Below, one piece after another: positions 47,622 to 63,995 of a stretch of DNA of 64,000 bases; within the stretch, counting starts at the first letter, position 1, and every line of letters begins with the position of its first letter. Origin of the DNA: Fontisphaera persica (GTDB lineage: Bacteria > Verrucomicrobiota > Verrucomicrobiia > Limisphaerales > Fontisphaeraceae); NCBI RefSeq assembly GCF_024832785.1, contig NZ_CP116615.1, forward strand, positions 744,001 through 808,000. The letters are read 5' to 3'. Position numbers and translations under genes: made by a program. A model generated the notes under the pieces. The model was not told where the DNA came from and ran no database searches. It saw only the letters and a program-made list of their open reading frames with translations.

Positions 47622-50600
47622 TCATGGGCTGCGGAGGCGGAAGAAACGCTGCGAGCCGTCCAGCGGCAGAAGAACGTGCCATAATCCATTGGAGCTGAAG
47701 GCTGCTTGAGGCAACGGCTGCCAATCGGGGGGATTCATCCCCGTGGTAAACTCCAATTGATAAGGCTGGTCAGAAACCGGCCAGGCCAGATAAAGGCCGC
47801 CGCCGGTGGCGGCAGGCGGAAGGAGTGCCGGGCCGCCAAAGCTCACCCAGACGGGCGTGGCGGTGGTGGCAGTGCCGGAATTATCGGTCGCAACCGCGGT
47901 AATCTGGCAGGCGCCGGGGGGTGGATTGCTCCACGTCAGACCATAGGGATAAACCGTGGCCTCACCTACTTTCACCTGGTTGGCGAAATACTCTACGCGG
48001 ACAATTTGCCCATAGCGATCAAACGCCTGTACCGCCAACGGAACCGGCTGCCCGGCAGGCAAGACGGCTCCCGGCGCGGGAGTGGTGAGGTTCACCACCG
48101 GCCGATAATTCCCCGTGGCTTCAAGGGCCAGGTCAAAAGCCAGGTCCGGACCATTATTCGTGTGTTGATGCAATTCCACCGCCAGCAGCACGGGCCCTTG
48201 GGGCAAAACCCACGGATGCAAACTGTAGGTCACAAAATTGGTTTGATTGGGACCGGTGACCTCGGACGAAGCGCGGTCATTGTAGGTAATCTCGCTCAGC
48301 GGCGGCATGTTGATGCGGATGGGCAGCTCGTTAAACCATATCACCACCCCATCGTCCGCCACCAGGCGAAGGGTGAGCGAAGCCAGGTCCGCTTGATTGG
48401 TGAATTTAGCCCGGAAATAGGTGGTGACGTATTTGTTTTCCGGGTCAGGTCCGAAATCCAGCACGGTGGTCTCTCCGCCCAGTCCATAACCGAAGCGACC
48501 GCGGCCGATTTTCCAGGCGGAATCACTAAAATCCCATTGCCGCCATGCGGCCCCCTGGTTGGAGCCGTCATCCAGGTACCGCCAGGACGCCCCGGCGGGG
48601 ATGAAGGCAATGGGTTGATCGCCCGCGGCCCTGGCCACCAGGTACAATGGAGCGGAAACCGTTTCCTGCCCGTTGCCGTCCAGCAAAATGGCGCGCAATT
48701 GACGCAGACCACCGCTGCCCAGCAGGTAATTGAAACGATACGGGGGAGTGAAAACGTCACCCAGTTTGGTGTCGTAATCGTAAAAACTCACCTTCACCAC
48801 GCCGGCCGGAGCCGTGGCGGAAACACTCAACAGCACATTGGACGGGGTGGTGACAGTCGTGTAATTGGCCGGCAGATTGAAGCTGATTTGCGGCGCTGGC
48901 GTCCCGCTGGCGGTGGTAAAACGGTACATGGCGCTGGGACTCCGCTCCTCGCCGCGCACGGCCACCACACGCCAATAATAGGTGGTCGAGGGTTGCAGTG
49001 TGGATTCCACCAGAAACGATTTGCCGTTGGTAGTGCCCAGCAGGTGGCTTGGGGTTAAATTCGTGGTAGTTCCCAGATATACCTCAAACGTGACTGGGTC
49101 CGGAGGGAGCAGCGTCAAGCTCACCTCATCCACTGAGACATTCAGGCAGCCCAGGCTGTCTTCCACCACAAAAGCCAGTTGCACTCTTTGGCCCTGCCAC
49201 GCATTGAGCATGGCCTGCCGTTGCTCGGGGGGTTGCAGCAGCGGGTCACCCGGCTGAGTGCGAAACAGCGTGGCCAGCACATTCGAGCCGGTAGCATCGC
49301 GCAATTCCACCCGGTATTGGTGCCGGTCATTAAATCCTTCGGCGTAATTGCGAATGAACTGCCGCCAAGTCAGGCTTAACACCCCGGGCACCGCCGGCAG
49401 TTGGACAAACCGGCTTAATTCACGACGCCCGGCGCTCAAGGGATGCGAGAGCGCCTCGAACCGGCCGCTGAGGGGCGGGAAAGGCCCGGCGCCCTGAGCC
49501 GTGAGTAGCGAGCCATTATTGATAATAAAAGCGCTGCCATCCGGACTCACCACATTGGACCAGCCCCGGAAATCGCCCGTTTCAAAACCTCCATTTTCCA
49601 GTAATTCTCCGTAGTCCGACGCCCATTCCAGCATCACGGGGAGCCTGACCTGCGTGGCCTGGTGGGCGGGAGAAATGAGCGCCGGCGCCGCCAGCGTCTC
49701 GTTGTCATCCACCACGATGATCGCCGTGGCATTGGAAAAGCCCGGAGCGCTGGCCGTAATCATCACGGCGTTGCTTGCGTTGCGGAGGTTGTCATCCAGA
49801 ATGTGGATGTTGAAAAACGCCTGGCTTTGCCCCGCGGCCAGGGTCAGGGTGGGCGGCACCAGCACCCGCGTCGGTTGGGAGCTTTCCAGCAAAACGATTA
49901 AATCGAAGGTCAGCGGGCCAGCCAAAAAGACCCGGCCGGCATTGCTCAGCACCCCGAAGGTTTCGCCCACCTGGGCGGGTATCTGCAGCATGAGATGGCG
50001 GTTTTCGTTGTCCAAAATCATGGCATTGGCGCTGGTGGCGGGCCAGCCTTCCACCTGCGCTTCCACGGCCACGGCGCTCAGCCCCTCAATGCTCTGATTA
50101 TCCAAAACCTGCAGCGCCACCGGGACCTGCGACTGGCCGCTGCCGACAATCACAAACCCCGGCGCGGGAATTTGCACCAGGTTGGTGTTGCGCGAGTATA
50201 ATCGCACCAGCAACGCTTCATGCGGCGGCGGCGAAACGCGGAGAACGCCTGCCGTGGAGACTAGTCCGGCGCCTTCCATCAGCATGGCGGGGAAAGACAG
50301 CTCCAGTTGGGCCGTCTCGTTATCGTACACCGTGACCAGCGTCTGTGCCGGGCTATAGTCGGGCGCCTGGGCAAGGAGGCGCGTGCGGCGCGGACCGTCA
50401 ATGAGCGCATCATCCGGATACACCACCATAAACCATTGGCTGGTTTGGCCGGCGGCCAGGGTGACCGAGGAAGGCACAATCACCTCGGCGGGATTTTCGG
50501 AAATCAACGCCACTTCCACCTCATTCGTCCCGGGCATGGGCAGCGAAACTCGGCCTGCCTGGGTAACCGTCCCCTGGCCTTCGGTGCTGTTTTGCACCCA

Positions 50601-53600
50601 GAGTTGCAACTGGCGCCCGCACCTGGGCGAGCTGGAAAAATCTGTCTCCACCAGCCCCGCCGGCACGCCGCGGCCGGGGGCCAGCCCCACGCGCCCGTTG
50701 CGCGCCTCCATCCGCAGCCAGGTGATGCGGATGACGCCATCAAAAAACAGTTCAATCTGGAAGGAATTGGAGTTTTGGATGCCATACTCGGGCACATCCT
50801 GCCAGGTCACCGCCACGCGGTCCGCCAATTGCCGCCAGCTCACCCGGGCATCCAGCACCCCGGTGAAAAGATTGGATTGCCCCGGATGAAAATCAGCATA
50901 CAGCGCGGCCACCCGCGGCTGCTCGTAGAAAATGGACAGTTCCGGTTGAAAATACTGGGTGTTGCCCATGCGCGTGGTCAGATGACCGTTGCTGCTGATG
51001 TAAAAAATGTTGGTGCGCTGGCCGAAGAGCGAGACCGTGCCCCCATTGGTGATGGTGAGGGGCAAATACCAGTCGTCTCCCAGGATGATCCTCTGTCCCC
51101 CGCTGGGATCAGTGGGGAATTGCGTGGCAGGCTGCCGGCACACCTGATACCCCGCCGCAGAATTGTCCGGCGTGAAGGTCAGCGTGGTGTGTTCCAAATC
51201 AAAATCCGCATGGTCAAAAAACTCGACCAGAAAGGAAGCCTCCTCACGAATGACCAGGCGGATATTCCGGACCTGGTTGGAGCCGGTGAGGGTATTCACC
51301 AGGAAAACCTGTTGCGTGTAAGTGCCGGCCGGCAGTTCAGTGACAATCCCGGCCAGGCTCACCACCAGGGAAACGGAAGACTGGGGTTGCAGCACACCGT
51401 TGGTGGCCGACAGCTTGAGCAAAGATGTCGCCGAGGCCTGCCAAGTCAGCGGTTGCCGTCCGGCGTTCATTAAATCGAACGTCAGACTAGCCGGCGAGAA
51501 TGGCCCGCCCACCATGCCGTTGATGGTTTGCTCGCCACTGGGGGAAATGTCAAAGTCTTCCGGCAAACTAAAGTCCTCGACAATGCCGACGGTCGTGTAA
51601 CTGGGGGGGGAGCTGGCCATCGCGCCCATGCCGCGGCGGGCAAAAGCCGCCCAGATTTCCGCGCGGTTGGCGCCCTGGTGGCTGATGCGGTCCGCCAGGA
51701 GTATGGCGTCGCGGGCATTCAAAAAATTGGGATTGGCAGGGCAGTTGCGCATCCCGTCCACCACCAATTGCATGGCCAGCCAGTTGCCGGTTTCGTAGCC
51801 GTGGCGGGCGATGAGATTGGCGCGCATGTCCCAAAGTGCGGAGCACCAGACTTCGCCCTGATTATGGACTTGCGAGGCGCTGGTCCCAATCGCGGGATTA
51901 CGCGGCACCCCGATATGCAGGCTCGCCTGGGTGGGGTCAATGTCCTTGAAGGTCAGCGGATTGACCGCCAGGTTGGTGCTGTATGGGTAGCGCCGGAGGC
52001 CGTAGTAATAATTTTCCGCCAGCAGGCCGCCAAACATGCGCGCCACATACGCGCTAAAGGGAAAATTGCTGGACAAGTTTTGCTGCGGATGGCTCAACAA
52101 CGCCATGGCCATGAAATCCGACCAGCCTTCGGCCATGCCCGCGGTTTGGGACTCCACAATGCCATAACCGGCGCCCACCAGCCGCTCGCTTAAACCGTGT
52201 GAGTATTCGTGCAGAATGACTTCAGCATCCAACGCCCCATCGCGGTCTGGATGCGGGGCGTTGAACAGATACATTTGCATCCGCGGGGCCATCCCGTCAT
52301 ACGGCGGCGTGGAGAAATTGGCATTGTTGAAACCTTCGCCGTCCTGAACATCCGCCAGGACGGCGTCGCCCCCCAGCCCGCCCCGGTTGAAATTGGTTTG
52401 CTGGAAATTGCCGGCGCTCTCCGTGAACCCCAACTCATGAAAACGATCATGAGCAAAATTGCACCAGTAAAAGACATTCACCACGGCAGCCGCAGAGGAA
52501 TTGGTGGGACTGCTCGCCAAATCCAGCGGGAAATCAAACAGCCGGTTGTTGGCGGTCGGCCGGGGAAGGTCCGGCTCGTTGTTGCCGTCCCAATCAGTAT
52601 GGGCAAGGACGTTGTTGCCTCGCGTCTCCGTATCGCCCGGATTCAGCCATCCCAGCGGGCTGGCATTGGTATTGAGCGCAGTCAAGGTCACCAACTGGCG
52701 CGGCACGATGTCCGGCTCCAGAGTCGAGGGAGAAGACCATCCCGGCGACATCGGCCGTGGACTGCGTTCCGTAAAAACACGGTACGCGGCCGGCTCTGCC
52801 TGGTATTTGGTCAGGCAATGGCGAATCCAGACCGTGCCATTTTCGGCATCCACCACCGCGCGGAAAAGGAAACCTGAGGAGCGCCCATAAAACACCACTT
52901 CCCACGCCAGCCGCAACTCTTGGGCATTCATCGGCAACCAGACCAGCCGCGCAACAACCTCGCCCAAGGTGACTGGGGAATGAAGTCGCTGACGGCGGTC
53001 GGGGCGGGGGGGAATTTCCAACTGACTGGTCACCGTCAGGTCCTCGGGAGGGGTTTCTCCCGCATCTAGCGCGGCCAGCCGCAAGGCTTGGGCAGCAGAG
53101 AGGGCAGGGGTGCCTTGCAGGGCCCGCTGGCGCGCCCCTGCCGGCGCCTTTTTGGCCAGTTGAGGCAACAACGCGCTGGACAGGGCAGCCAGCTCATTTC
53201 TCCGCGTTATTTGCCCCACCAAATGAGCACCAAAGACATCCAATCCGTCCAGTTGTTGCTGCCAAACCACCGTGCGCTGGCCGTTGTGGGGCGTGACGTA
53301 ATCACGCTCAACGCGAGCGGAATCCAGCACTTCCGCGCCATGCTTGAACCAGGCGGCATGGCGGTTGAGGTAGGCCTTAACCGGGGCGTGAGGATCGGCA
53401 GGTGGGCGAAGCGCGGCACGCGTCAGCCCGGAGGCGGCGGGTGGGGCGTCAGCGCCCTCCGGGCCGGTCAGAAATCCTTGCTCCGCGACGATAAAGCGCG
53501 GTGTTTGCAGCAAACCATCATAAGTCACCCGCACATTCGGAGGTGCTCCCTCCTCTCTGGTTGGTGGCAGGTCTTGACGGGCCAGCCCCCGCACCGCGTC

Positions 53601-53720
53601 CAGTCTGCGGTCCACATTCGGGGGTGGCTCTTTCTGAGGCGGATAAAAGGCAAAAAGCGGAAGGCCAGGCCACAGGCTCAATGCCATCCCGCAGCAAACC
53701 AGCAGAAAATGTCCACGCAT
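47622..53720 (-). CDS. Giant secreted M36 (fungalysin-type) metallopeptidase
   Basis: 2032 aa from the ATG at 53720, which opens on a signal peptide; 27 extra codons upstream lack one. After a propeptide (about 30-330) comes the M36 peptidase with zinc motif HEYSH at about 504-508 and downstream EGWSD. A long tail follows: three tandem Calx-beta-like repeats each ending in D(D)NE, an N-terminal-like immunoglobulin and a fibronectin-type region, and two Ig-like repeats (VSFYDYDTKLGD and VEYFANQVKVGE). The C-terminus 'PDWQPLPQ ... QRFFRLRSP' matches the sorting/anchor-like module common in subdivision 3 Verrucomicrobiota. It is probably a secreted protein-degrading enzyme. Confidence 0.87.
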   Translation of the reverse strand: MRGHFLLVCCGMALSLWPGLPLFAFYPPQKEPPPNVDRRLDAVRGLARQDLPPTREEGAPPNVRVTYDGLLQTPRFIVAEQGFLTGPEGADAPPAASGLTRAALRPPADPHAPVKAYLNRHAAWFKHGAEVLDSARVERDYVTPHNGQRTVVWQQQLDGLDVFGAHLVGQITRRNELAALSSALLPQLAKKAPAGARQRALQGTPALSAAQALRLAALDAGETPPEDLTVTSQLEIPPRPDRRQRLHSPVTLGEVVARLVWLPMNAQELRLAWEVVFYGRSSGFLFRAVVDAENGTVWIRHCLTKYQAEPAAYRVFTERSPRPMSPGWSSPSTLEPDIVPRQLVTLTALNTNASPLGWLNPGDTETRGNNVLAHTDWDGNNEPDLPRPTANNRLFDFPLDLASSPTNSSAAAVVNVFYWCNFAHDRFHELGFTESAGNFQQTNFNRGGLGGDAVLADVQDGEGFNNANFSTPPYDGMAPRMQMYLFNAPHPDRDGALDAEVILHEYSHGLSERLVGAGYGIVESQTAGMAEGWSDFMAMALLSHPQQNLSSNFPFSAYVARMFGGLLAENYYYGLRRYPYSTNLAVNPLTFKDIDPTQASLHIGVPRNPAIGTSASQVHNQGEVWCSALWDMRANLIARHGYETGNWLAMQLVVDGMRNCPANPNFLNARDAILLADRISHQGANRAEIWAAFARRGMGAMASSPPSYTTVGIVEDFSLPEDFDISPSGEQTINGMVGGPFSPASLTFDLMNAGRQPLTWQASATSLLKLSATNGVLQPQSSVSLVVSLAGIVTELPAGTYTQQVFLVNTLTGSNQVRNIRLVIREEASFLVEFFDHADFDLEHTTLTFTPDNSAAGYQVCRQPATQFPTDPSGGQRIILGDDWYLPLTITNGGTVSLFGQRTNIFYISSNGHLTTRMGNTQYFQPELSIFYEQPRVAALYADFHPGQSNLFTGVLDARVSWRQLADRVAVTWQDVPEYGIQNSNSFQIELFFDGVIRITWLRMEARNGRVGLAPGRGVPAGLVETDFSSSPRCGRQLQLWVQNSTEGQGTVTQAGRVSLPMPGTNEVEVALISENPAEVIVPSSVTLAAGQTSQWFMVVYPDDALIDGPRRTRLLAQAPDYSPAQTLVTVYDNETAQLELSFPAMLMEGAGLVSTAGVLRVSPPPHEALLVRLYSRNTNLVQIPAPGFVIVGSGQSQVPVALQVLDNQSIEGLSAVAVEAQVEGWPATSANAMILDNENRHLMLQIPAQVGETFGVLSNAGRVFLAGPLTFDLIVLLESSQPTRVLVPPTLTLAAGQSQAFFNIHILDDNLRNASNAVMITASAPGFSNATAIIVVDDNETLAAPALISPAHQATQVRLPVMLEWASDYGELLENGGFETGDFRGWSNVVSPDGSAFIINNGSLLTAQGAGPFPPLSGRFEALSHPLSAGRRELSRFVQLPAVPGVLSLTWRQFIRNYAEGFNDRHQYRVELRDATGSNVLATLFRTQPGDPLLQPPEQRQAMLNAWQGQRVQLAFVVEDSLGCLNVSVDEVSLTLLPPDPVTFEVYLGTTTNLTPSHLLGTTNGKSFLVESTLQPSTTYYWRVVAVRGEERSPSAMYRFTTASGTPAPQISFNLPANYTTVTTPSNVLLSVSATAPAGVVKVSFYDYDTKLGDVFTPPYRFNYLLGSGGLRQLRAILLDGNGQETVSAPLYLVARAAGDQPIAFIPAGASWRYLDDGSNQGAAWRQWDFSDSAWKIGRGRFGYGLGGETTVLDFGPDPENKYVTTYFRAKFTNQADLASLTLRLVADDGVVIWFNELPIRINMPPLSEITYNDRASSEVTGPNQTNFVTYSLHPWVLPQGPVLLAVELHQHTNNGPDLAFDLALEATGNYRPVVNLTTPAPGAVLPAGQPVPLAVQAFDRYGQIVRVEYFANQVKVGEATVYPYGLTWSNPPPGACQITAVATDNSGTATTATPVWVSFGGPALLPPAATGGGLYLAWPVSDQPYQLEFTTGMNPPDWQPLPQAAFSSNGLWHVLLPLDGSQRFFRLRSP

Positions 53721-53801
53721 TTGTGCGTTAAAGCCTACACGCGATTGCGCGTGAACGCAAACGATTGACAGGCAGGCCGCGCCCTGCGGCAGGAAAGGCA
53801 C

Positions 53802-54990: not shown

Positions 54991-55572
54991 TCACTTAACC
55001 CGCACATTTTCGGGATAATTCCAGTTCGCAAAACCGGCCCAGGTGTGTTCCGGCATCATCAGCCGCCGGGTCAGGCCGAGGTGCAGCGTCCATTCAGCAA
55101 ATTGGGTGGCCGAATTGCAGCCTTCTTCCAGAAAAGCGCGGGCTGACGCCAGGGCACACCGTGGATAAATGGCGGCCAGTGGCTCGAGGCGCTCCTTGAC
55201 CACGGGTACCACGCCCGACTCCGGGGTGGCGTGATGTAAAAGGCGTTGGAGGATTTCGACATTCATGTGAGGCATGTCCACCGCCAGCACCAGCAGAAGG
55301 GGGGAAGTCATCGTCGCCAGTCCGCGCTCAATTCCTGCCAGCGGGCCTTGTGCAGGGTAATAGTCCGGAATGACTGGCACCCCCAACGTTTGTGTGGCTT
55401 TGGTGAGAGGCGAGGATACCAGAATGGCCTCCGGTTGCAGATGTTTTAACAGGGACAATTGCCGGTGAATGAGGGGCTGGCCGTCCACTTCCAGCCACAC
55501 CTTGTCCCGTCCCATGCGGGTGGATTGGCCCCCCGCCAGCACCATTGCCGTGAAGCCGGGGGGCGCATTCAT
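54991..55572 (-). CDS. mobA: Molybdenum cofactor guanylyltransferase MobA
   Basis: 193 aa from the ATG at 55572, which overlaps the MOSC stop by 4 bp. The nucleotidyltransferase signature LAGGQSTRMGRDK sits at about 12-24, and the second motif LAVDMPHM holds the Mg2+ Asp. MobA attaches GMP to molybdopterin to make the bis-MGD cofactor that NarG needs. It is the last gene of the nitrate reductase operon, which supports this reading over other nucleotidyltransferases. Confidence 0.9.
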   Translation of the reverse strand: MNAPPGFTAMVLAGGQSTRMGRDKVWLEVDGQPLIHRQLSLLKHLQPEAILVSSPLTKATQTLGVPVIPDYYPAQGPLAGIERGLATMTSPLLLVLAVDMPHMNVEILQRLLHHATPESGVVPVVKERLEPLAAIYPRCALASARAFLEEGCNSATQFAEWTLHLGLTRRLMMPEHTWAGFANWNYPENVRVK

Positions 55573-56036
55573 ACCATTTTGCGCAGCCAGCCGCTGCTTA
55601 TGATGCGGGCGCGTAACCCCCCCCGGCCTTTCAACCAAGCTTCCGCCTGGGGATGCCCGAAGGCCTCATTCATCCAAAAGCACGGCCGGCACTCCTCCAC
55701 CCCGGCAAAGCGCACACCCTGCAATTCAAATTCCCTGCCAATCAGCGCATTCAAATCCATCCCTTCGGTAATGACGTTCCGCCGCGTGGCGGAGGGGGGG
55801 GTGTCAGGGGAAAGGTTCAGCTCCCGTAAAAGCGCCTGAAACACCTCCCAGGAAAAAAAGGTGATTTGTCCTTTGTAATCCGGCTTGTAATCAAAAAAAC
55901 GGTCACCCGTAATGCCCCGGCCCGCCACGCATTCAATTTGGTCGCATTCCACCACCGGATGATGGTCCGGCGGCTGCCCCTGATGACCAAAATAGTTGTG
56001 GCCCGGCGAAATATAGAGATGACGGATGCGCATCAT
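55569..56036 (-). CDS. MOSC domain protein
   Basis: 155 aa, short for the family. The key block is AGRGITGDRFFDYKPDYKGQ followed by ITFFSWE, and an acidic loop VVECDQIECV precedes it. MOSC domains bind pyranopterin Mo and transfer sulfur or cofactor. It is co-transcribed between narK and mobA, overlapping mobA by 4 bp and narK by 4 bp. Probably it helps finish or deliver the Mo cofactor to NarG. Confidence 0.85.
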   Translation of the reverse strand: MMRIRHLYISPGHNYFGHQGQPPDHHPVVECDQIECVAGRGITGDRFFDYKPDYKGQITFFSWEVFQALLRELNLSPDTPPSATRRNVITEGMDLNALIGREFELQGVRFAGVEECRPCFWMNEAFGHPQAEAWLKGRGGLRARIISSGWLRKMV

Positions 56037-57415
56037 GACCGCTTGATTTCAAACTGATTGCTCAACTGCGGAGTGGCCTGATGCAGAATATGCCACACCA
56101 CCCAATGCAACCAGGCCAAACTCACCAACGTGAGCAAAAAAAGTATGGCAAAGGTCGTCTGCGGAATGCCGGTGATTTTATAGGCGTATGCAAACAGCGG
56201 CGGCAGGAAGAAACCACCCAGCGCCCCCAACAGCCCCACCAGCCCGCCTACCGCGCCCACATCCTTGGGAAAATATTCGGGAATGTATTTGTACACCGCG
56301 GCCTTGCCGATGCCCATGCCACAACCCACAATGAAAACAAGAAAGGTGAACAGCGTTGGCCCCATGACAAAGCGCATGGTTTCAATCTGGCCGCTGGCGG
56401 CGTAACGCTCCGGCACGTACAGCACAATATGGCCATTGGGCGCCGATAACAATAACAGCGCCCCCAACATGCTGCCAAACACCCAGTACATCGTGCGGCG
56501 CGCCCCAAACTTGTCCGCCAGCCACCCTCCCAGGGGCCGGAGCAAACTGGCCGGAAAAATGAACAGCGCCGTCAGCAATGCGGCATGTGACAAGGGCATC
56601 TTGAACACGTCCACGTAGTACTTGGGCAGCCAGACGGAAAGAGCCACATAGGCTCCAAAGACCACCACATAATACAAACTGAACCGCCACACCCGCACTT
56701 GCCGCAACGGGCGCAACAACTCCCGCAAAGGACGGCCCTGGCCTGGCGTGCGGTCTTCAGTGGGCGTGAACAACCATAACGCGGCCGCCATCACCAGACA
56801 CAATATGCCATATAAAAACGGCACAAACCGCCAGCCCCCTGGTATCACCCCTCCGGCCAGCCCGGCGGCAGGCACCAGCGCTATCAAACCCGGACCGATG
56901 AATTTGGTCACAGATGCTCCCACATTGCCGGCGCCAAACACCCCCAGGGCGAATCCCTGTTTCTCGCGCGGGAACCAGGCGGAGTTCCAGGCAATGCCGA
57001 CACTAAAAGCGTTGCCCGCCATGCCCACCCAAAAGGCATACAACATCAATTCGGTGAAGCTGGAGGCGCGGCTGACCAGAAAAGCTGGCAGGGCGGTGGC
57101 TGCCACCAAGAGCGTCAGCACCCGGCGCCCGCCGTAACGGTCAGTCAATATGCCAAAGCACAGCCGCCAGATGGAACCATTCAAAATCGCAATGGCGGTC
57201 AGCCAGCCAAACTGCACCTCGGTTAATTGAAACTCCTGGCGGATGGGAATGCCCAACACGCCAAACATCAGCCACACGGCAAACATCAAGGTAAAGGCCG
57301 TGGTGGACAGCGTGAGAATCAGATTGCGCGAAGCCGATTCCGTGCGTTCAACCGACAGGGACAGGGAAGCCGAGGGGGTCTTGGCCTCCTGCAGAGGGTT
57401 GGCTATTCCATTCAT
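56033..57415 (-). CDS. narK: NarK-type nitrate/nitrite MFS transporter (second copy)
   Basis: 460 aa from the ATG at 57415, 2 bp after the first narK stops. Twelve membrane segments are seen. The nitrate porter signatures are LGVFGAGNVGASVTKF in helix 5 and VGGLVGLLGALGGFFLP in helix 11, both the GxxGxGxxxG type. The Arg pair of helices 2 and 8 is present (NGSIWRLCFG and FPASLLRPLGG). Nitrate/nitrite exchange or proton symport is the likely activity. Compared with the preceding narK it forms a separate clade; the pair may be the NarK1-NarK2 type. Confidence 0.9.
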   Translation of the reverse strand: MNGIANPLQEAKTPSASLSLSVERTESASRNLILTLSTTAFTLMFAVWLMFGVLGIPIRQEFQLTEVQFGWLTAIAILNGSIWRLCFGILTDRYGGRRVLTLLVAATALPAFLVSRASSFTELMLYAFWVGMAGNAFSVGIAWNSAWFPREKQGFALGVFGAGNVGASVTKFIGPGLIALVPAAGLAGGVIPGGWRFVPFLYGILCLVMAAALWLFTPTEDRTPGQGRPLRELLRPLRQVRVWRFSLYYVVVFGAYVALSVWLPKYYVDVFKMPLSHAALLTALFIFPASLLRPLGGWLADKFGARRTMYWVFGSMLGALLLLSAPNGHIVLYVPERYAASGQIETMRFVMGPTLFTFLVFIVGCGMGIGKAAVYKYIPEYFPKDVGAVGGLVGLLGALGGFFLPPLFAYAYKITGIPQTTFAILFLLTLVSLAWLHWVVWHILHQATPQLSNQFEIKRS

Positions 57416-57417
57416 AA

Positions 57418-58761
57418 CTAACAGGGTTTTTCCGCGCCCTTGCGGGTGTAGAACCAGTAATTGATAGCCGTGGCCAGGGCGCAGTAGGCCAGCAAGCCCA
57501 GGAAAAACGGACGGGCCGAACCTGTGGCTGAGGCAGCCCATCCAATTAACAAGGAAAAGACGAACGGACCGTAGGCCGCCACCGCCGCAGTGAAACCGAT
57601 TACCCCCGCCCCCTGCCGCGGTGAATGCGCAAAAATAAGCGGATACTGCCGGAACGTGGCTGCGTTGCCCACTCCCGTGCAGAAAAACATCCCCAGCATG
57701 ACGCCGACAAACCAGGGGAATCGCTCTACCGACGTGGGAGCGAGCAAATCGCTAAACACCAGCACGCCACACCCCGCCATGAGGCCAAGGCCGCACAGGT
57801 GCGTGAGAATGGCCCCGCCCCATTTGTCGGTCAGCGGACCGGCGATGACCCGCATCGCCGAGCCAATCAACGGGCCATAGAAGGCATATTTCAAAGGATC
57901 AGGAGCTTCGGGAAACTTGCCATACACCGTTTTAATCAACATGGGAAACGCCGCCGCCAGCCCGGAAAAACAGCCGAAGGTCATGATGTAGGTAATCATG
58001 CAAAAATAGGTGTGTTTGTTCTTGAAGATGTCCAGTTGCTCGCGGAAGGAGGCGCGCACGGGCACGCTGCGCAGAAAAATCCAGGCCAGCATCCCCATCA
58101 CCACCAGAAACGGCACGTAAATGAAAACCGCGTTTTGCAGCCAGATTTGGACGCTTTGGCCCCCCTTCGTCATGGTCTGGGCGGCGCCCAGCAGGCCGCC
58201 GGCCAGCGGAATCGTGATAATCCACGGTGTCAAAAATTGAGTGAGACTGACACCGAAATTGCCCAGACCCGCCTGAATCCCCAGGGCGGTGCCTTGCAGG
58301 CGTTTGGGGAAGAAAATGCTCGTGCTGGGCATGAAGGACGAAAAATCGCCACCCCCGAAACCGGCGAGAAACGCCAGGATGAGAAACATCCAGAAAGGCG
58401 TGTTGGGATTGAGTATGGCAAAGCCCAGGCCGAGGCAGGGAAGCAATTTGGCAAAGGTGGCGACCGTGATGACCTTGCGGGTCCCATAAATGGGAATCAA
58501 AAACATGTGCACCAGCCGCAACGTGCCGCCCGCCAGCCCGGGCATGGCGGTCAACCAGAACAGTTGCATGTCGGTGAATTTGAAGCCAATGGCCGGCAGC
58601 CGCACCACCACCGCGCTCACCACAAACCAGGTGGCAAACGAGAGTACTAGCGCCACCGTGGTAATGGCCAGCGTGCGCCACGCAATCACCTTGCCGGTTT
58701 GTTCCCAGAATTGCGGGTCTTCGGGGCGCCAGTCAGTTAAGGTGGAGCTGGTGTGGTTCAT
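57418..58761 (-). CDS. narK: NarK-type nitrate/nitrite MFS transporter (first copy)
   Basis: 447 aa, twelve membrane segments. The signature ALGIQAGLGNFGVSLTQF lies in helix 5 and RQGAGVIGFTAAVAAYGPF in helix 11. The nitrate-binding Arg residues appear in GGTLRLVHMFLIP and GSAMRVIAGPLTDKWGG. Its ATG overlaps the stop of the cytochrome c gene by 4 bp. It differs enough from the second NarK that the two are not a recent duplication. One probably takes up nitrate with protons and the other exchanges nitrate for nitrite. Confidence 0.91.
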   Translation of the reverse strand: MNHTSSTLTDWRPEDPQFWEQTGKVIAWRTLAITTVALVLSFATWFVVSAVVVRLPAIGFKFTDMQLFWLTAMPGLAGGTLRLVHMFLIPIYGTRKVITVATFAKLLPCLGLGFAILNPNTPFWMFLILAFLAGFGGGDFSSFMPSTSIFFPKRLQGTALGIQAGLGNFGVSLTQFLTPWIITIPLAGGLLGAAQTMTKGGQSVQIWLQNAVFIYVPFLVVMGMLAWIFLRSVPVRASFREQLDIFKNKHTYFCMITYIMTFGCFSGLAAAFPMLIKTVYGKFPEAPDPLKYAFYGPLIGSAMRVIAGPLTDKWGGAILTHLCGLGLMAGCGVLVFSDLLAPTSVERFPWFVGVMLGMFFCTGVGNAATFRQYPLIFAHSPRQGAGVIGFTAAVAAYGPFVFSLLIGWAASATGSARPFFLGLLAYCALATAINYWFYTRKGAEKPC

Positions 58762-59372: not shown

Positions 59373-60473
59373 TCAGCCTTTGAACAAGCGGTAGATGTGT
59401 TCACCAAACAAGGTCATGATTACCAGGTACAAGGCCCCCAATACGGCCAGCAGCCGGAGCGTGCGGCGGCTGGTGTGTCGGAAAATCCATGGCGTGCAGC
59501 ACAATCCCACGCCGGCAGCCAGCGATAGGAGCAGCACCACCCAGAAGGGTAAAATCTCAAGCGGATAATAGATGAAGTAGAAATACCACTCCGGCTTGAT
59601 GCCGTCGGGAGTGGAGCTTTTGGGATCATAAGGTTCAAACAGGGGATAGGCATAGAAAGACTCAAAGGGCACGCAGAGGGCCACTACAAACAACACCATG
59701 AAGGCCACTCCCCAGACCGACAGGTCTTTGATGAAAAACGCAGGGAAAAACTTTTCCTTGCGCCGGGGGGGCTCATCCACTCCCTGGCTCATGCCATGAA
59801 GCTGCACCGAAAATAAATGCAGGGCCAGCACCGCCACCATCGCCAGCGGCAGGAGGACCACGTGCAGCGCAAAAAACCGGCTGAGCGTGGCCTGTCCCAC
59901 GCTCGCCTCGCCCTGAATGGTTTCCTTGACCAGACGGGGCCATTCGGCAAGGGCGCCCGGCAGATAAGCGCCAACCTCCTCTATGGATTGCAGGCCTATC
60001 TTGGTGGCATTGACGGCGATTTGGTGCCAGGGCAGCAGATAGCCGGTAAAGCCCAAACCCAGCGTGATGAACAACAACAATACCCCGCTTACCCAGGTCA
60101 GCTCGCGGGGACGGGCAAAGGCCTTCATCGCAAAAGTGGTGAGCAGATGCACCATCACCGCCGCAATCATCATCGAAGAAGCCCACGCATGCATGTTGCG
60201 CACCAGTGCGCCCCCCGGAACATGCTCCGTGATGAATTCCACCGAGGCATGCGCATCGCTTACGGTGGGCTGGTAATAGAACAGGAGCATCAGACCGGTG
60301 ACCACCTGCACCGCAAAAAAGAACAAGGCCAGACCGCCCAGATAGTAGCCCCACGAAAGACGGTGCACGGGCACCTCCTTCTTGCGCACCAGGGCGTCGT
60401 AATTGAGCTTGCGCACCGGCAGCCGCTCGCCCAGGTACGTTTCGGCACGTTGGATGAAAGCCAGCAGGTTCAT
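59373..60473 (-). CDS. Cytochrome b of b6f/bc type (nar operon)
   Basis: 366 aa with seven or eight membrane segments. The four heme ligands are H95 and H109, and H204 and H219: 13 and 14 residues between, the second spacing being that of cytochrome b6 rather than mitochondrial b. The Qo motif PEWY is present (KPEWYFYFIYYP), so cytochrome b6 and the start of subunit IV are fused. It is shorter than a full cytochrome b. It lies between the NarI-Rieske fusion and the cytochrome c gene, all within 16 bp, which together make a complete bc-type core. Confidence 0.9.
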   Translation of the reverse strand: MNLLAFIQRAETYLGERLPVRKLNYDALVRKKEVPVHRLSWGYYLGGLALFFFAVQVVTGLMLLFYYQPTVSDAHASVEFITEHVPGGALVRNMHAWASSMMIAAVMVHLLTTFAMKAFARPRELTWVSGVLLLFITLGLGFTGYLLPWHQIAVNATKIGLQSIEEVGAYLPGALAEWPRLVKETIQGEASVGQATLSRFFALHVVLLPLAMVAVLALHLFSVQLHGMSQGVDEPPRRKEKFFPAFFIKDLSVWGVAFMVLFVVALCVPFESFYAYPLFEPYDPKSSTPDGIKPEWYFYFIYYPLEILPFWVVLLLSLAAGVGLCCTPWIFRHTSRRTLRLLAVLGALYLVIMTLFGEHIYRLFKG

Positions 60474-60488
60474 GGCATCAGGGCTGTT

Positions 60489-61805
60489 TCAAGTCGCAGA
60501 CGCTTGGGGTTTGATGATATACACGCTGCACTGGGCCAACGCGGCAGGGTCCACGTCCCCTTCCACCGGCCCCCGGGGAGATTTGCGGGCGACTACTTTG
60601 CCGCTCGCATCCACCAAAGCCCAGCCAAGGTGGGGCAGAGGAGCTTTGGCTGGCGCGCCCTCATTCGGCCGCCCTGTGCGAAGGTCAAAATACGAAACAT
60701 GGCAGGGACACAGGATGCGCCCTTGGGCATCCACTTCGCTGCCCACCGTGCAGCCCAAATGCGTGCACTTGGCGGAGATGAGCAGCGGCAGGCCGTCCTT
60801 GCCCTTGAAAGCCAGCGCCGGCGCCATCGAGTAATCAATGAAATACTTCCCCTTGTTCTCCGTCAGCTCACTGTAACGCGCCACCAGTATCATTGGGTTG
60901 CGCTGCCGCTCTAATTCCAGTTCCCGTTCCTCCGCCGTCTGCTGCAGGCGCTGCAATTTTTTGGTCAGCAGCTCCGCCTCCATTTCCGGCTCCAGCCGCG
61001 GCCCGCGGAAATAGCTCACACCTTTCTCCATCACGCCCAGGGCCAGCAATCCACCTGCTCCCGCCACGCCCACGGCCCCCTTGAGAAATTCACGGCGGCT
61101 TTCCGCGCGCGCCATCGCCACCGCGGCTTCCCGGCGGCGCCGGGCATTATTCCACACCACCCAAATGGGCGCCCGCCACAAGTATTGCAACGGCAGTGCC
61201 AGCAGGTGTATCAGGCGGGTAAAAGGCACCAGCAGCACCATCACCCACGCCAGGGTGAGATGTAATTTGAACAAAGGGGGAAAGCCGGTGACGTAACTCA
61301 TGTCCGGCTGCAATTTAATGAGGCCCCAAAAATAGGGAACCACCGTGCCAGTGCTCCAGGCCGAACCATAGCGATAATGAATGGCGGAAAGCAGACCCAC
61401 CACCACCTGCACCAGCAACAAGCCCGCCACAATTAAATCCGCCGGCGTGGTCACCGCCTGCACCCTCCCCGAAGTCAGCCGCCGCACCAGCAGCACGCTC
61501 AAGCCCGCCACGGCCAGCAGAGAACACGCCACCCCCACCGTTTCCACGGCCAGGAGCGCCCCCGGCACGGTCAATAGACTGGCCCAGACTTTGGGAAATA
61601 AAACCGCGATGAGATGCCCCAGCAGCACTATCCCGATGCCTATGTGCCAGGGCGTCGAGCCAAACAACAACTGGCGGTCTTCCAAAAATTGGGATGAGCG
61701 CGCCGTCAGGGTGAACTTCTCACGGCGCGCCCGCCAGAGGCAGCCCACCACAAAAATCAACAATGATAAATAGGGCAGTCCCACAAACAGAAAAGCGTCC
61801 ATCAT
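60489..61805 (-). CDS. narI: NarI (nitrate reductase gamma subunit) fused to a Rieske iron-sulfur protein
   Basis: 438 aa from the ATG at 61805; 76 more codons are open above but overlap narJ. Residues 1-215 are NarI: five membrane helices with heme ligands H54, H64 and H182, H200, spacings identical to E. coli NarI (56/66 and 187/205). Residues 236-242 read SRREFLK, a twin-arginine-like signal, followed by a hydrophobic helix (243-258). Residues about 305-435 are a Rieske domain with CTHLGC (347-352) and CPCHVSYF (366 onward), both Cys-His pairs complete. The start overlaps the narJ stop. An NarI-Rieske fusion is unusual. Confidence 0.93.
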   Translation of the reverse strand: MMDAFLFVGLPYLSLLIFVVGCLWRARREKFTLTARSSQFLEDRQLLFGSTPWHIGIGIVLLGHLIAVLFPKVWASLLTVPGALLAVETVGVACSLLAVAGLSVLLVRRLTSGRVQAVTTPADLIVAGLLLVQVVVGLLSAIHYRYGSAWSTGTVVPYFWGLIKLQPDMSYVTGFPPLFKLHLTLAWVMVLLVPFTRLIHLLALPLQYLWRAPIWVVWNNARRRREAAVAMARAESRREFLKGAVGVAGAGGLLALGVMEKGVSYFRGPRLEPEMEAELLTKKLQRLQQTAEERELELERQRNPMILVARYSELTENKGKYFIDYSMAPALAFKGKDGLPLLISAKCTHLGCTVGSEVDAQGRILCPCHVSYFDLRTGRPNEGAPAKAPLPHLGWALVDASGKVVARKSPRGPVEGDVDPAALAQCSVYIIKPQASAT

Positions 61806-62479
61806 AACTCCTCCTTTCCGTTGCCGCCGCCACCTTGGATGCCCGCCAAAAATGAAGCCGAACAGCCGCATCCGCCGGCGGAAACTTCCTTCACCCCGGC
61901 CAACGGACACGGCGCAGGCGCCACGCCAGGGTGGGTCTCTTTGAGCGCCTCTTCCACCATTTCCAGCAACGCCCGATAAGGATGTTCTTCGGCCAGGGAT
62001 TCCTGCATGCGGCGCAGCGGCCCCAATAAACAAAATTGGGTCAATTCCCGCTGTTCGGCGTCCTCGGTTTGCGCGGCAAAGCGCAGCAGTACAGCCAGAT
62101 GATCGGGCAATTCACCTCCCGTTGCAAAACCCTCCTCCGCATATCGCTCCAACAAGGCCGCCATGAACCGGCCCCGCCGGTAGTTTTCTTCACCAAACAA
62201 ATGGATGCCGACATAGGGCACACAGGCCGGACAGAGGTCAAAAGTGGCAGTGTACAATTCTTCCCGCTCATCGGGGGACATCCGCCCCACAGCCGACGAA
62301 AAGCGCTCCCAGGCCTGGCGGACGGCCACACTCCACCCCGGCATCATCCTGGCGGCCTCGGTCAATCGAGCGGCGAAATCTGCTCCCGGATACTCCAGCA
62401 GGCGCCCCAGACATTGCCAGCCTGCCGTGGAGTTGGCGGCTTCATTTTCGAGCGGGACCATGAAGGTTGGGTTGGACAT
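61802..62479 (-). CDS. narJ: Nitrate reductase assembly chaperone NarJ
   Basis: 225 aa from the ATG at 62479; codons above it overlap narH and do not fit. It is a helical TorD/NarJ-type chaperone with WQCLGRLLEYPG near the start, LCPACVPYVGIHLFGEENY and RRGRFMAALLERY in the middle. The tail is Cys- and Gly-rich (AGGCGCSASFLAGIQ), unlike typical NarJ. NarJ holds NarG apo-protein while Mo-bis-MGD is inserted. It overlaps the NarI-Rieske start by 4 bp and follows narH by 10 bp. Confidence 0.88.
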   Translation of the reverse strand: MSNPTFMVPLENEAANSTAGWQCLGRLLEYPGADFAARLTEAARMMPGWSVAVRQAWERFSSAVGRMSPDEREELYTATFDLCPACVPYVGIHLFGEENYRRGRFMAALLERYAEEGFATGGELPDHLAVLLRFAAQTEDAEQRELTQFCLLGPLRRMQESLAEEHPYRALLEMVEEALKETHPGVAPAPCPLAGVKEVSAGGCGCSASFLAGIQGGGGNGKEEL

Positions 62480-62489
62480 ACATTCAAGT

Positions 62490-63995
62490 TCAGGCACGTG
62501 GCGTGACGGAGTGCATCGCACTGGAAAGATGAAAGCCCGTGCAGCCCTTGCAGGCCTCCGGACTGCAGGAGGATTCAATGGCTTCCTCCCGCTGCAAAGG
62601 CGGCAGCACATAGCGCTGGTACTGGGTCGGCAGGGCCGTGAGCTGGTAAATGGCGTGCGCTTCCTCGGGCGTGGTCTGGGCGTCCCGCAAGATTTTGTGC
62701 ACCTCGGTTTCGGGCAGGTCACGCACGCTCTCCCACCGCTTGAAATACCGCACCGCCATCAATTTCTTGAGCACCGCCTCGATAACCTCCTCATTGCCCG
62801 CACTGAACAGCCGGGCCAGGTATCGAATCGGCAGGCGCGCCTGCGCCAGACTGCCAAAAAAACCATCCGCGTTGTGCCCGTAACCGCCTTCGCCGCGTTT
62901 TCCCAGGATGGGCAGCAGCGGCGGCACATAAAACAGCATCGGCAGCGTGCGGTATTCAATGTGCAGGGGCAGGGCCAGTTTCCACTGCGCCACGTAGGGA
63001 TACACCGGCGATTTCTGCGCCGCGTCCAAAAACTCCTCGCTGATGCCGTTCCTGAGGGCGGCGGCCACCACCCCGGGGTCGTGAGGATTGAGAATCACCG
63101 TCCGTTGGGATTCCACCAATGCCCGGTCGGGCACTTGCATCGCCCGCGGCACCTGCTCCGCGTCATATAACAGCACCCCCAGATAACGAATGCGTCCCAC
63201 GCACGCATGAAAACAGGCCGGAGGCTGGCCGGTCTCCAGCCGGGGGAAACAGAGAATGCACTTTTCCGATTTGCCCGTCTTCCAGTTGTAATAAATCTTT
63301 TTGTAAGGACAGGCCGCCACACAGGCACGCCAGCCGCGGCACTTCTCCTGATTTATCAGCACAATGCCGTCTTCACCCCGTTTGTAGATCGCCCCTGATG
63401 GACAGGCCGCCACACAACTGGGATTGGCGCAATGATTGCAAATGCGCGGCAGATAAAACATGGCCAGCCGCTCGATTTCAAACAATTGCGCCCGCTCCAT
63501 CTCGCTCAGCCCTTCCCAATTCACATCGTTTTCCGCATATACGGGCGAGCCGGACAAATCGTCGTCCCAGTTGGGCCCGGCCTTGATGTCCATCGGCTCG
63601 CCGGTGATGAGGGATACCGGAATGGCCGTGGGCTGATCTTTTCCTGCCGGCGCCTGGAACAGGTCCTCATAGCGATACGTCCAGGGCTCGTAGTAATCCT
63701 GCAGCGTCGGCTGGTTGGGATTGTAAAACAACTTGAGGAAGGCGTCCGCCCGGTTCTGACACCGCAGCTCCAGGGATTCTCCCTCCTTGCGCCAGCGCCA
63801 GCCCCCGTTGAATTTATCCTGGTTTTCCCATTGGGTGGGATAGCCCGTCCCGGGCTTGGTCTCCACATTATTCCACCACATGTACTCGGCGCCGGGGCGG
63901 TCCGTCCACACGTTCTTGCAGGCAATGCTGCAGGTGTGGCAGCCAATGCACTTGTCCAGGTGAAAAACCACTGCTACATGCGCGCGTACATCCAT
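62490..63995 (-). CDS. narH: Respiratory nitrate reductase beta subunit NarH
   Basis: 501 aa, complete. Its Fe-S ligands are C16, C19, C22 and C26 in CIGCHTCSIACKNVW, then CNHCANPSCVAACPSGAIYK, then CRGWRACVAACPYKKIYY (Trp replaces one Cys, giving the 3Fe-4S site as in E. coli) and CILCFPRLETGQPPACFHAC. It wires electrons from NarI hemes to NarG. The start is 5 bp from the window edge, and narG is expected immediately beyond. The C-terminus has an extra CSPEACKGC stretch. Confidence 0.95.
   Translation of the reverse strand: MDVRAHVAVVFHLDKCIGCHTCSIACKNVWTDRPGAEYMWWNNVETKPGTGYPTQWENQDKFNGGWRWRKEGESLELRCQNRADAFLKLFYNPNQPTLQDYYEPWTYRYEDLFQAPAGKDQPTAIPVSLITGEPMDIKAGPNWDDDLSGSPVYAENDVNWEGLSEMERAQLFEIERLAMFYLPRICNHCANPSCVAACPSGAIYKRGEDGIVLINQEKCRGWRACVAACPYKKIYYNWKTGKSEKCILCFPRLETGQPPACFHACVGRIRYLGVLLYDAEQVPRAMQVPDRALVESQRTVILNPHDPGVVAAALRNGISEEFLDAAQKSPVYPYVAQWKLALPLHIEYRTLPMLFYVPPLLPILGKRGEGGYGHNADGFFGSLAQARLPIRYLARLFSAGNEEVIEAVLKKLMAVRYFKRWESVRDLPETEVHKILRDAQTTPEEAHAIYQLTALPTQYQRYVLPPLQREEAIESSCSPEACKGCTGFHLSSAMHSVTPRA

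Follow-up and report, generated by a model that had tools for sequence, protein, structure and literature searches.

The window examined here is a stretch of 64,000 nucleotides (positions 744001-808000) of the single-contig, 4.7 Mb genome of Fontisphaera persica. On its reverse strand lies a gene, narI::Rieske, in which the membrane subunit of respiratory nitrate reductase (NarI) is joined in frame to a Rieske iron-sulfur protein. The surrounding operon has the layout of the Thermus nar operon plus an added Rieske-cytochrome b-cytochrome c set, the Rieske member of which is in frame with narI. It probably encodes a nitrate reductase fed by a cytochrome bc-type complex, a Rieske/cytochrome b complex having been annexed by covalent fusion to a cytoplasm-facing enzyme of NarCGHI layout. 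A more far-reaching form of this proposal, to which we would give an even chance, is that of one covalently tied machine that runs a full Q-cycle into cytoplasmic nitrate reduction, in which NarI would be a pure transmembrane wire and the charge yield per nitrate would rise from 2 to 4. This machine would have spread over several phyla with either half losable, NarGHI occurring without the Rieske protein in three genomes of a Bacteroidota sample and the Rieske-cytochrome b-cytochrome c set without Nar in three others.

The frame runs uninterrupted for 438 codons from the ATG at 61805 to a stop that ends at 60489, and a stop-free run of this length has a chance probability of ~7e-7 given the base composition. 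An earlier note, made from the letters of this stretch alone, had described an intact frame of 438 amino acids (aa) with coordinates that proved exact. It had also named a stop or frameshift at residues 215-240 as what would refute the fusion, and none is present in the frame. The start codon overlaps the narJ stop (ATGA) downstream of a GGAGGAG sequence, and third-position guanine-cytosine content is even across the NarI-Rieske junction (0.74, 0.74 and 0.73). The NarI part of the protein (P0001) matches PF02665 (residues 4-218, E 1.7e-60, 204.7 bits for a cut-off of 22.9) and TIGR00351 (140 bits for a curated cut-off of 105.55), and the Rieske part matches PF00355 over its cut-off (residues 307-391, E 6.3e-8). 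The twin-arginine translocation (Tat) motif between them exceeds the TIGR01409 cut-off (18 bits for 16.7) and lies under the curated Pfam cut-off for PF10518 (residues 236-255, E 9.7e-4, 19.4 bits for 22.7).

The full fusion is present in 29 genomes, that of F. persica included. A scan of GTDB genome contigs yielded 26 loci, of which 23 carry the whole fusion (47-73% identity to P0001 by alignment) and three match the Rieske half only. Five further fusions (L033, L102, L110, L113 and L114) show 45-58% identity. The closest titled relative, at 73%, comes from a genome titled Verrucomicrobia subdivision 3 bacterium (L001). Phyla of relatives follow the titles of the records or the genome on which a sample was centred; the titles of the holders comprise Verrucomicrobia, Planctomycetota, Cyanobacteria/Melainabacteria, Omnitrophota, Sumerlaeota, Bacteroidota and unnamed bacteria. 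It is practically out of the question that the fusion is an artefact of assembly, binning or sequencing. Almost all titled relatives are indeed metagenome-assembled genomes, but the same junction recurs in 29 genomes, P0001 shares 45-73% identity with the other 28 fused proteins, and the F. persica copy lies on a single 4.7 Mb contig. Missequencing is excluded because 23 other assemblies and five later genomes carry the full fusion.

Conservation extends to the redox residues. The four NarI histidines are kept in 29/29 fused and 52/52 unfused rows, from which same-locus duplicates and the weak own-phylum PF02665 matches L035-L040 were left out. In E. coli NarI they correspond to positions 56, 66, 187 and 205, which we take to be the heme ligands. 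Six Cys/His columns of the Rieske half are invariant in all 29 fused proteins; C347, H349, C366 and H369 are presumably the cluster ligands and C352 and C368 the disulfide pair. Both ligand sets are thus as complete as the earlier note had claimed. The twin arginine ahead of the anchor is RR in 27 of the 29 proteins and KR in two.

The conserved gene order is diheme cytochrome c (NarC-like), narG, narH, narJ, narI::Rieske, cytochrome b and monoheme cytochrome c. Downstream of the fusion, cytochrome b is found at 23/23 loci of the contig scan and the monoheme cytochrome at 21, the other two contigs ending in cytochrome b. Upstream, narH and narJ are found at 22/23 loci and narG at 21/23, some being cut by contig ends; any gene that is absent from a locus falls beyond the end of its contig, so that the order holds over the full reach of the contigs. 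The diheme cytochrome gene precedes narG at 18/23 loci, once as a fragment (L006), and the remaining five contigs end first. A NarK-like frame accompanies 17/23 fused loci. In F. persica, narG and the diheme cytochrome gene lie just outside the window (L030). The diheme protein (P0009) has two CxxCH motifs and matches PF00034 and PF13442. NarG carries the molybdenum cofactor domains PF00384 and PF01568. Its N-terminus (MSWIQDLF...) is without a twin-arginine signal and those of its relatives are of the same kind, so that nitrate is probably reduced in the cytoplasm. The monoheme cytochrome (P0003) keeps CxxCH in 28/28 aligned rows. It has no Pfam or NCBIfam match at E 0.01 and no PDB fold match at E 0.001 (best E 2.5). 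Its AlphaFold 2 (AF2) model is confident (predicted local distance difference test, pLDDT, of 91), and its sequence has a conserved DxDxDG stretch resembling a calcium-binding repeat. A consensus search found no promoter-like site ahead of the operon.

The cytochrome b gene (P0002) directly follows the fusion. Wherever an aligned row extends far enough, its four histidines and the GYLLPW and PEWY motifs are there (29-30 of 30 rows, including three stand-alone ones). With the Rieske ligands and a cytochrome c encoded alongside, the features of a Rieske/cytochrome b complex are present, and this anatomy supports the suggestion of the earlier note that a bc-type module is coupled to nitrate reductase. 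Beyond that suggestion come the two c-type cytochromes of the operon, the spread over several phyla and the loss of an arginine at the quinol-site place of the NarI half. The AF2 model of P0001 matches Rieske structures with Z ~10-12. Box 2 of the Rieske domain reads CPCHVSYF in all 24 aligned rows, and CPCHISYF or CPCHISHF in some fusions found later. It has Phe in place of the redox-tuning Tyr of bc1 Rieske proteins, which suggests a lowered Rieske potential that would suit menaquinol. In 30/30 cytochrome b rows a Tyr occupies the place aligned with the Cys of cytochrome b6, presumably the heme cn residue. The CPCHISHF box is seen in L113 and L114, two small genomes (1.8-1.9 Mb) of the Cyanobacteria-centred sample whose divergent fusion is 45% identical to P0001.

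The NarI half differs from the E. coli protein at the place of Lys86, which we take to be a quinol-site residue and which Bertero et al. reportedly described as such in 2005. This residue is mutated in PDB entry 1y5i. By phmmer and in one MAFFT alignment it aligns with A83 of P0001, which stands five positions ahead of E88 in NarI helix 3. In the smaller MAFFT alignment this column is hydrophobic in 25/25 fused rows, and in 28 unfused rows it holds R (18), K (2), Y (5) and V, M or T (one each). Counted without gaps, the position five before the helix-3 Glu is Arg in 40 of the 43 unfused rows with this Glu, the 9 of 52 that lack it not being placeable by this anchor, and is hydrophobic and never Arg in 29/29 fused rows. 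The alignment with the ungapped helix is preferred here and the quinol-site result rests on that choice. Under it, the fused NarI appears to lack the basic quinol-site residue of the E. coli type and is, for this reason, not filed with the quinol-oxidising E. coli type.

The three unfused exceptions without Arg (L061, L062 and L071, from the Bacteroidota sample) have a NarGHI that nests inside the fused group. They can be read as having lost the Rieske protein and cytochrome b, and their genomes contain a Rieske/cytochrome b pair that is separate and differs in type. Grouping of the fused rows as one clade is rejected (approximately unbiased test, p-AU 0.0015), and the fused/unfused state changes twice both in the NarI tree and in the NarGHI tree, the latter built from 30 of 82 rows, those with a NarG >900 aa. 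One gain and one loss is the history that we prefer, and two gains cost the same. Nar operons of the Bacteroidota sample with neither Rieske nor cytochrome b (L077, L078 and L079) are nested in the fused group, which probably reflects secondary loss. Among 38 genomes with unfused NarI, eight have no PF00033 cytochrome b match. All eight have the Arg, suggesting that Arg-type NarI is able to work without a bc complex.

The C-terminus of NarI is cytoplasmic in known structures, so that the RR motif would fall on the side required by Tat. The predicted topology is N-out, Sec inserting five helices and Tat the sixth. The internal Tat-type anchor proposed in the earlier note agrees with the data at hand: SRREFLK exceeds the TIGR01409 cut-off, it stands directly before the last helix and on the consistent side, and tatC is present in the F. 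persica genome. By mean Kyte-Doolittle hydropathy the sixth helix ranks lowest (1.62 vs 1.86-2.58 for helices 1-5), but Hessa values (3.5) do not separate it from helix 2 (3.7) and helix 5 (2.8); the helix limits were set by hand. The AF2 model of P0001 has a mean pLDDT of 77.5 and a predicted template modelling score of 0.45. Its NarI part matches 1q16_C (Z 20.4, root mean square deviation 2.8, 201 residues) and its helix 221-267 is of low confidence.

Proteins with dual Sec/Tat insertion are characterised, in the accessible part of Tooke et al. (PMC5449189), by an RR pair ahead of a final helix that is itself of low hydrophobicity and is followed by positive charges. Examples given there are a five-transmembrane actinobacterial Rieske protein, Sco3746, a polyferredoxin and the N-out YkuE family. 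The fusion has in common with these families the twin arginine before the last helix and, with the metalloprotein families among them, the cofactor domain after it. It differs in that five helices precede the motif and that its first part is a heme b subunit of nitrate reductase. The earlier note called internal Tat signals after five Sec-inserted helices rare. RR before the last helix is known elsewhere; an N-out protein with five preceding helices is not among the families of section 9 of PMC5449189, where the N-out search names YkuE-like proteins only. The fusion would offer a natural six-helix protein with five helices inserted by Sec and the last by Tat.

In the proposed mechanism, cytochrome b would oxidise menaquinol at its Qo site in a Q-cycle, one electron being recycled via the b hemes. 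The other electron would pass to the Rieske head, placed on the outer face by Tat and still tethered to NarI, and from there to the outer heme of NarI, directly or more likely via the monoheme cytochrome c and the NarC-like diheme cytochrome. That a Rieske-cytochrome b-cytochrome c set exists without NarI makes the route through the monoheme cytochrome likelier than a direct jump from Rieske to NarI alone. NarI would no longer oxidise quinol, and its two hemes would serve only to pass electrons inward, to NarH and then NarG. If nitrate is reduced on the inner side, the Q-cycle would yield 4 rather than 2 H+ per 2 electrons, that is per nitrate. The redox loop of the textbook NarGHI saves 2 charges for each nitrate reduced. 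Placing a bc complex in front would raise this to 4 and could so, if this is true, let cells draw extra energy from nitrate respiration. Energy-yield estimates for uncultured nitrate reducers would then change.

A shared-subunit arrangement, in which NarI still takes electrons from menaquinol, appears unlikely. The Rieske/cytochrome b/cytochrome c module would then be an ordinary menaquinol:cytochrome c reductase for periplasmic acceptors such as NrfA or an oxidase, and the fusion would fix stoichiometry and proximity for assembly only. NarI does keep its four histidines, stand-alone Rieske-cytochrome b-cytochrome c operons occur in genomes without a NarI match, and F. persica has both a heme-copper oxidase and an NrfA-like gene. 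However, the Arg found in 40/43 Glu-anchored unfused NarI is missing in 29/29 fused proteins, and other acceptors could be served by a second Rieske/cytochrome b operon, whose cytochrome b (45% identical) is the sole relative of P0002 in the genome. The NrfA-like gene (PF02335, 440 bits) is a 468-aa frame with five CxxCH motifs, a TAG within the match marking the frame end. This pentaheme gene fits a reduction of nitrate to ammonium.

It also argues against a reverse-running nitrite oxidoreductase, in which electrons from nitrite would exit via NarI and the cytochromes c while the Rieske/cytochrome b part drives reverse flow to quinone. Such a role would suit the presence of cytochromes c at both ends of the gene set, and a NarC-like cluster of Nitrobacter is used for nitrite oxidation (PMC7694296, accessible part). 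We consider it highly unlikely, since two close unfused relatives (L077 and L078) also adjoin two frames with four CxxCH motifs each, possibly NrfH/NrfA-like. Moreover, the holders of the fusion include Melainabacteria and Omnitrophota, which are not known as nitrite oxidisers.

Several observations weigh against the bc-fed reading preferred here. The larger MAFFT run gaps helix 3 by two residues, so that the Arg is not aligned with Lys86, and makes the Lys86 column non-diagnostic, 49/52 unfused rows also being without K or R there. Loss of the Arg and the fusion trace back to roughly a single evolutionary event and their association comes close to a single observation; Arg loss accompanying a bc supply is consequently suggestive rather than proof. 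In Thermus, and in other NarI that come with a NarC, the Arg is retained although no bc module is fused. The eight genomes with Arg and without a cytochrome b match may be incomplete, and an alternative complex III was not searched for in them. The three-gene set, occurring as it does in genomes without a NarI match, may serve another acceptor. As for the topology, the net charge after the Tat helix (residues 266-300) is inconsistent across the fused proteins (-3 to +4), and the junction is poorly predicted by AF2 (block means of 41-63 for residues 201-240), whose model gives no information on partners.

Whether NarI and the Rieske protein remain one chain also bears on the bc-fed reading. The linker between NarI and the twin arginine is of near constant length (17-21 residues) and contains no ATG, GTG or TTG in 14/29 fusions, so that in these the Rieske half must be made within the fusion. 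An internal start producing a separate Rieske half was rejected as a general mechanism on the same ground. In P0001 itself the linker has one GTG and one ATG, and the Rieske half could be translated separately from such a start. Alternatively, a single chain could be made and then cleaved in the linker, leaving NarI and the Rieske protein separate and the fusion a mere co-expression device. The linker is poorly conserved and Arg-rich in many rows, and the Rieske half has a complete anchor of its own like its stand-alone relatives. Cleavage is nevertheless improbable in view of the retention of the fusion over several phyla with a linker of 17-21 residues, and the Tat anchors of Rieske proteins are as a rule not cleaved off.

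A stand-alone Rieske-cytochrome b-cytochrome c operon belonging to the same family occurs in each of three genomes (L024, L025 and L026), one titled Cyanobacteria, one Obscuribacterales and one Oligoflexia, in which no NarI match was found. Their Rieske protein has a twin-arginine-like pair near the N-terminus (RR in L024 and L025, RK in L026). In the tree of Rieske plus cytochrome b, whose outgroup branch is very long and in which 9 forks are open, L024 and L025 stand beside the fused Melainabacteria copies and so look like survivors of nar loss; the position of L026 is left without resolution. As donors of the fusion the stand-alone modules were discarded, since L024 and L025 appear derived. 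The second bc-type operon of the F. persica genome (L031:5763-9885, C1 ~490762-494884) encodes a 379-aa membrane protein without a Pfam match, a Rieske protein of 163 aa, a cytochrome b of 360 aa, and a CydA-like subunit (PF01654) whose own chain includes a CxxCH end (weak PF13442). A Rieske/cytochrome b pair similar to that of L031 is found in L124-L126.

Compared with known systems, the fused operon has in common with E. coli NarGHI (1q16_C) the NarI fold, the four histidines, narG, narH and narJ, and a NarG without a Tat signal. It differs by the C-terminal Rieske domain, a dedicated cytochrome b, two cytochromes c and the absence of a basic residue at the Lys86 place (phmmer and smaller MAFFT alignment). 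Thermus NarCGHJI (plasmid pTTJL1801) shows the same succession of c-type cytochrome, narG, narH, narJ, narI and transporter; however, no Rieske or cytochrome b gene follows its narI, which is 690 bp long and keeps the Arg. Thermus NarC contacts NarI by two-hybrid assay, according to the accessible part of PMC7694296. Nar1 of Streptomyces coelicolor depends on components of the bcc-aa3 supercomplex and co-purifies with them, and a Q-cycle with 4 H+ has been proposed (PMC7931247, accessible part). It shares with our proposal a nitrate reductase presumably fed by a bc complex, but relies on a general respiratory supercomplex, and no fusion is mentioned in the part of that paper available. In haloarchaea, Rieske and cytochrome b genes lie with the nitrate reductase genes, and nitrate reduction is inhibited by antimycin A, as cited in the accessible parts of PMC4683180 and PMC8301774. 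The haloarchaeal enzyme differs in that its NarG has a Tat motif and faces outward, and Haloferax mediterranei has no NarI-like gene (same sources). That cytoplasm-facing nitrate reductases may work bc-fed is based, in the Streptomyces case, on dependence and co-purification (PMC7931247). Since the coupling is here written into one polypeptide in several phyla, a single operon makes this question testable. Searches of an open-access library, which omits most subscription papers, gave no description of a NarI-Rieske fusion; the accessible parts of PMC4013037, PMC3475470 and PMC3578206 contain nothing on it.

The frequency of the fusion was surveyed in five phylum samples. Their fractions are no unbiased rates because the genomes at their centres were picked for holding the fusion. 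In the own-phylum sample, 8/288 genomes match PF02665 (7 over the cut-off), and only two matches are strong (E < 1e-60), both of them fused. In the Bacteroidota sample, 25/395 genomes exceed the TIGR00351 cut-off: 20 were inspected and are unfused, a further four contain frames of 235-320 aa, and the genome at the centre is the one with the fusion. The Cyanobacteria sample has 5/292 genomes over the cut-off (one more below), of which the centre and two others are fused. The Omnitrophota sample has 6/193 (one more below), three being fused with the centre included. In the Planctomycetota sample 44/294 are over the cut-off, and three of nine frames of at least 400 aa are fused (the centre, G303 and G1238). 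The six others (L098, L099, L108, L109, L111 and L112) were rejected as additional fusions, being long upstream open frames with only 1-14 residues after NarI; for the Planctomycetota NarI over the cut-off without a locus of their own, frame length was the only criterion. Two Melainabacteria (L046 and L047), of 23 fused genomes, have a second, unfused and distant NarI beside the fusion.

The features of the operon and its flank are collected in Table 1.

Table 1. Position of the narI::Rieske gene, its parts and the neighbouring genes in the window
Feature	Position	Strand	Evidence
narI::Rieske fusion gene (P0001), 438 aa	60489..61805	-	frame and profile matches, ATGA overlap with narJ, upstream GGAGGAG
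NarI domain, residues 4-218; histidines H54, H64, H182, H200	61152..61796	-	PF02665, invariant columns, structural match to 1q16_C
Short linker ahead of the twin arginine, residues 219-235 (presumably cytoplasmic)	61101..61151	-	
SRREFLK twin-arginine motif, residues 236-242	61080..61100	-	PF10518, TIGR01409, RR 27/29 and KR 2/29
Sixth helix (putative Tat-type anchor), ~residues 243-266	61008..61079	-	low-confidence AF2 helix, Kyte-Doolittle mean
Helical linker, residues 267-303	60897..61007	-	AF2 helix 273-302; similar stretch in stand-alone relatives
Rieske [2Fe-2S] domain, residues 304-433; C347, H349, C352, C366, C368, H369	60507..60896	-	PF00355, conserved 29/29, Rieske structure matches
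Cytochrome b (P0002), 366 aa, b6 part and subunit IV-like part with PEWY	59373..60473	-	PF00033 E 8.5e-42, PF00032 E 2.2e-4
Monoheme c-type cytochrome with C-terminal helix (P0003), 203 aa	58758..59369	-	CALCH motif
NarK-like transporter (major facilitator superfamily)	57418..58761	-	PF07690
Second NarK-like transporter (major facilitator superfamily), start uncertain	56033..57541	-	PF07690
MOSC-domain protein (probably molybdenum cofactor related)	55569..56036	-	PF03473
MobA-like nucleotidyltransferase (probably molybdenum cofactor)	54991..55638	-	PF12804
narJ, chaperone (P0005)	61802..62479	-	TIGR00684 59.7 bits (cut-off 59.35), PF02613
narH, iron-sulfur subunit (P0004)	62490..63995	-	TIGR01660 617 bits

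Past the transporters, the MOSC and MobA-like genes (54991-56036) continue in the direction of the operon, which fits a supply of molybdenum cofactor. Further downstream (47622-53801) lies a gene for a 2059-aa protein composed of a fungalysin-type M36 metallopeptidase domain and bacterial Ig domains.

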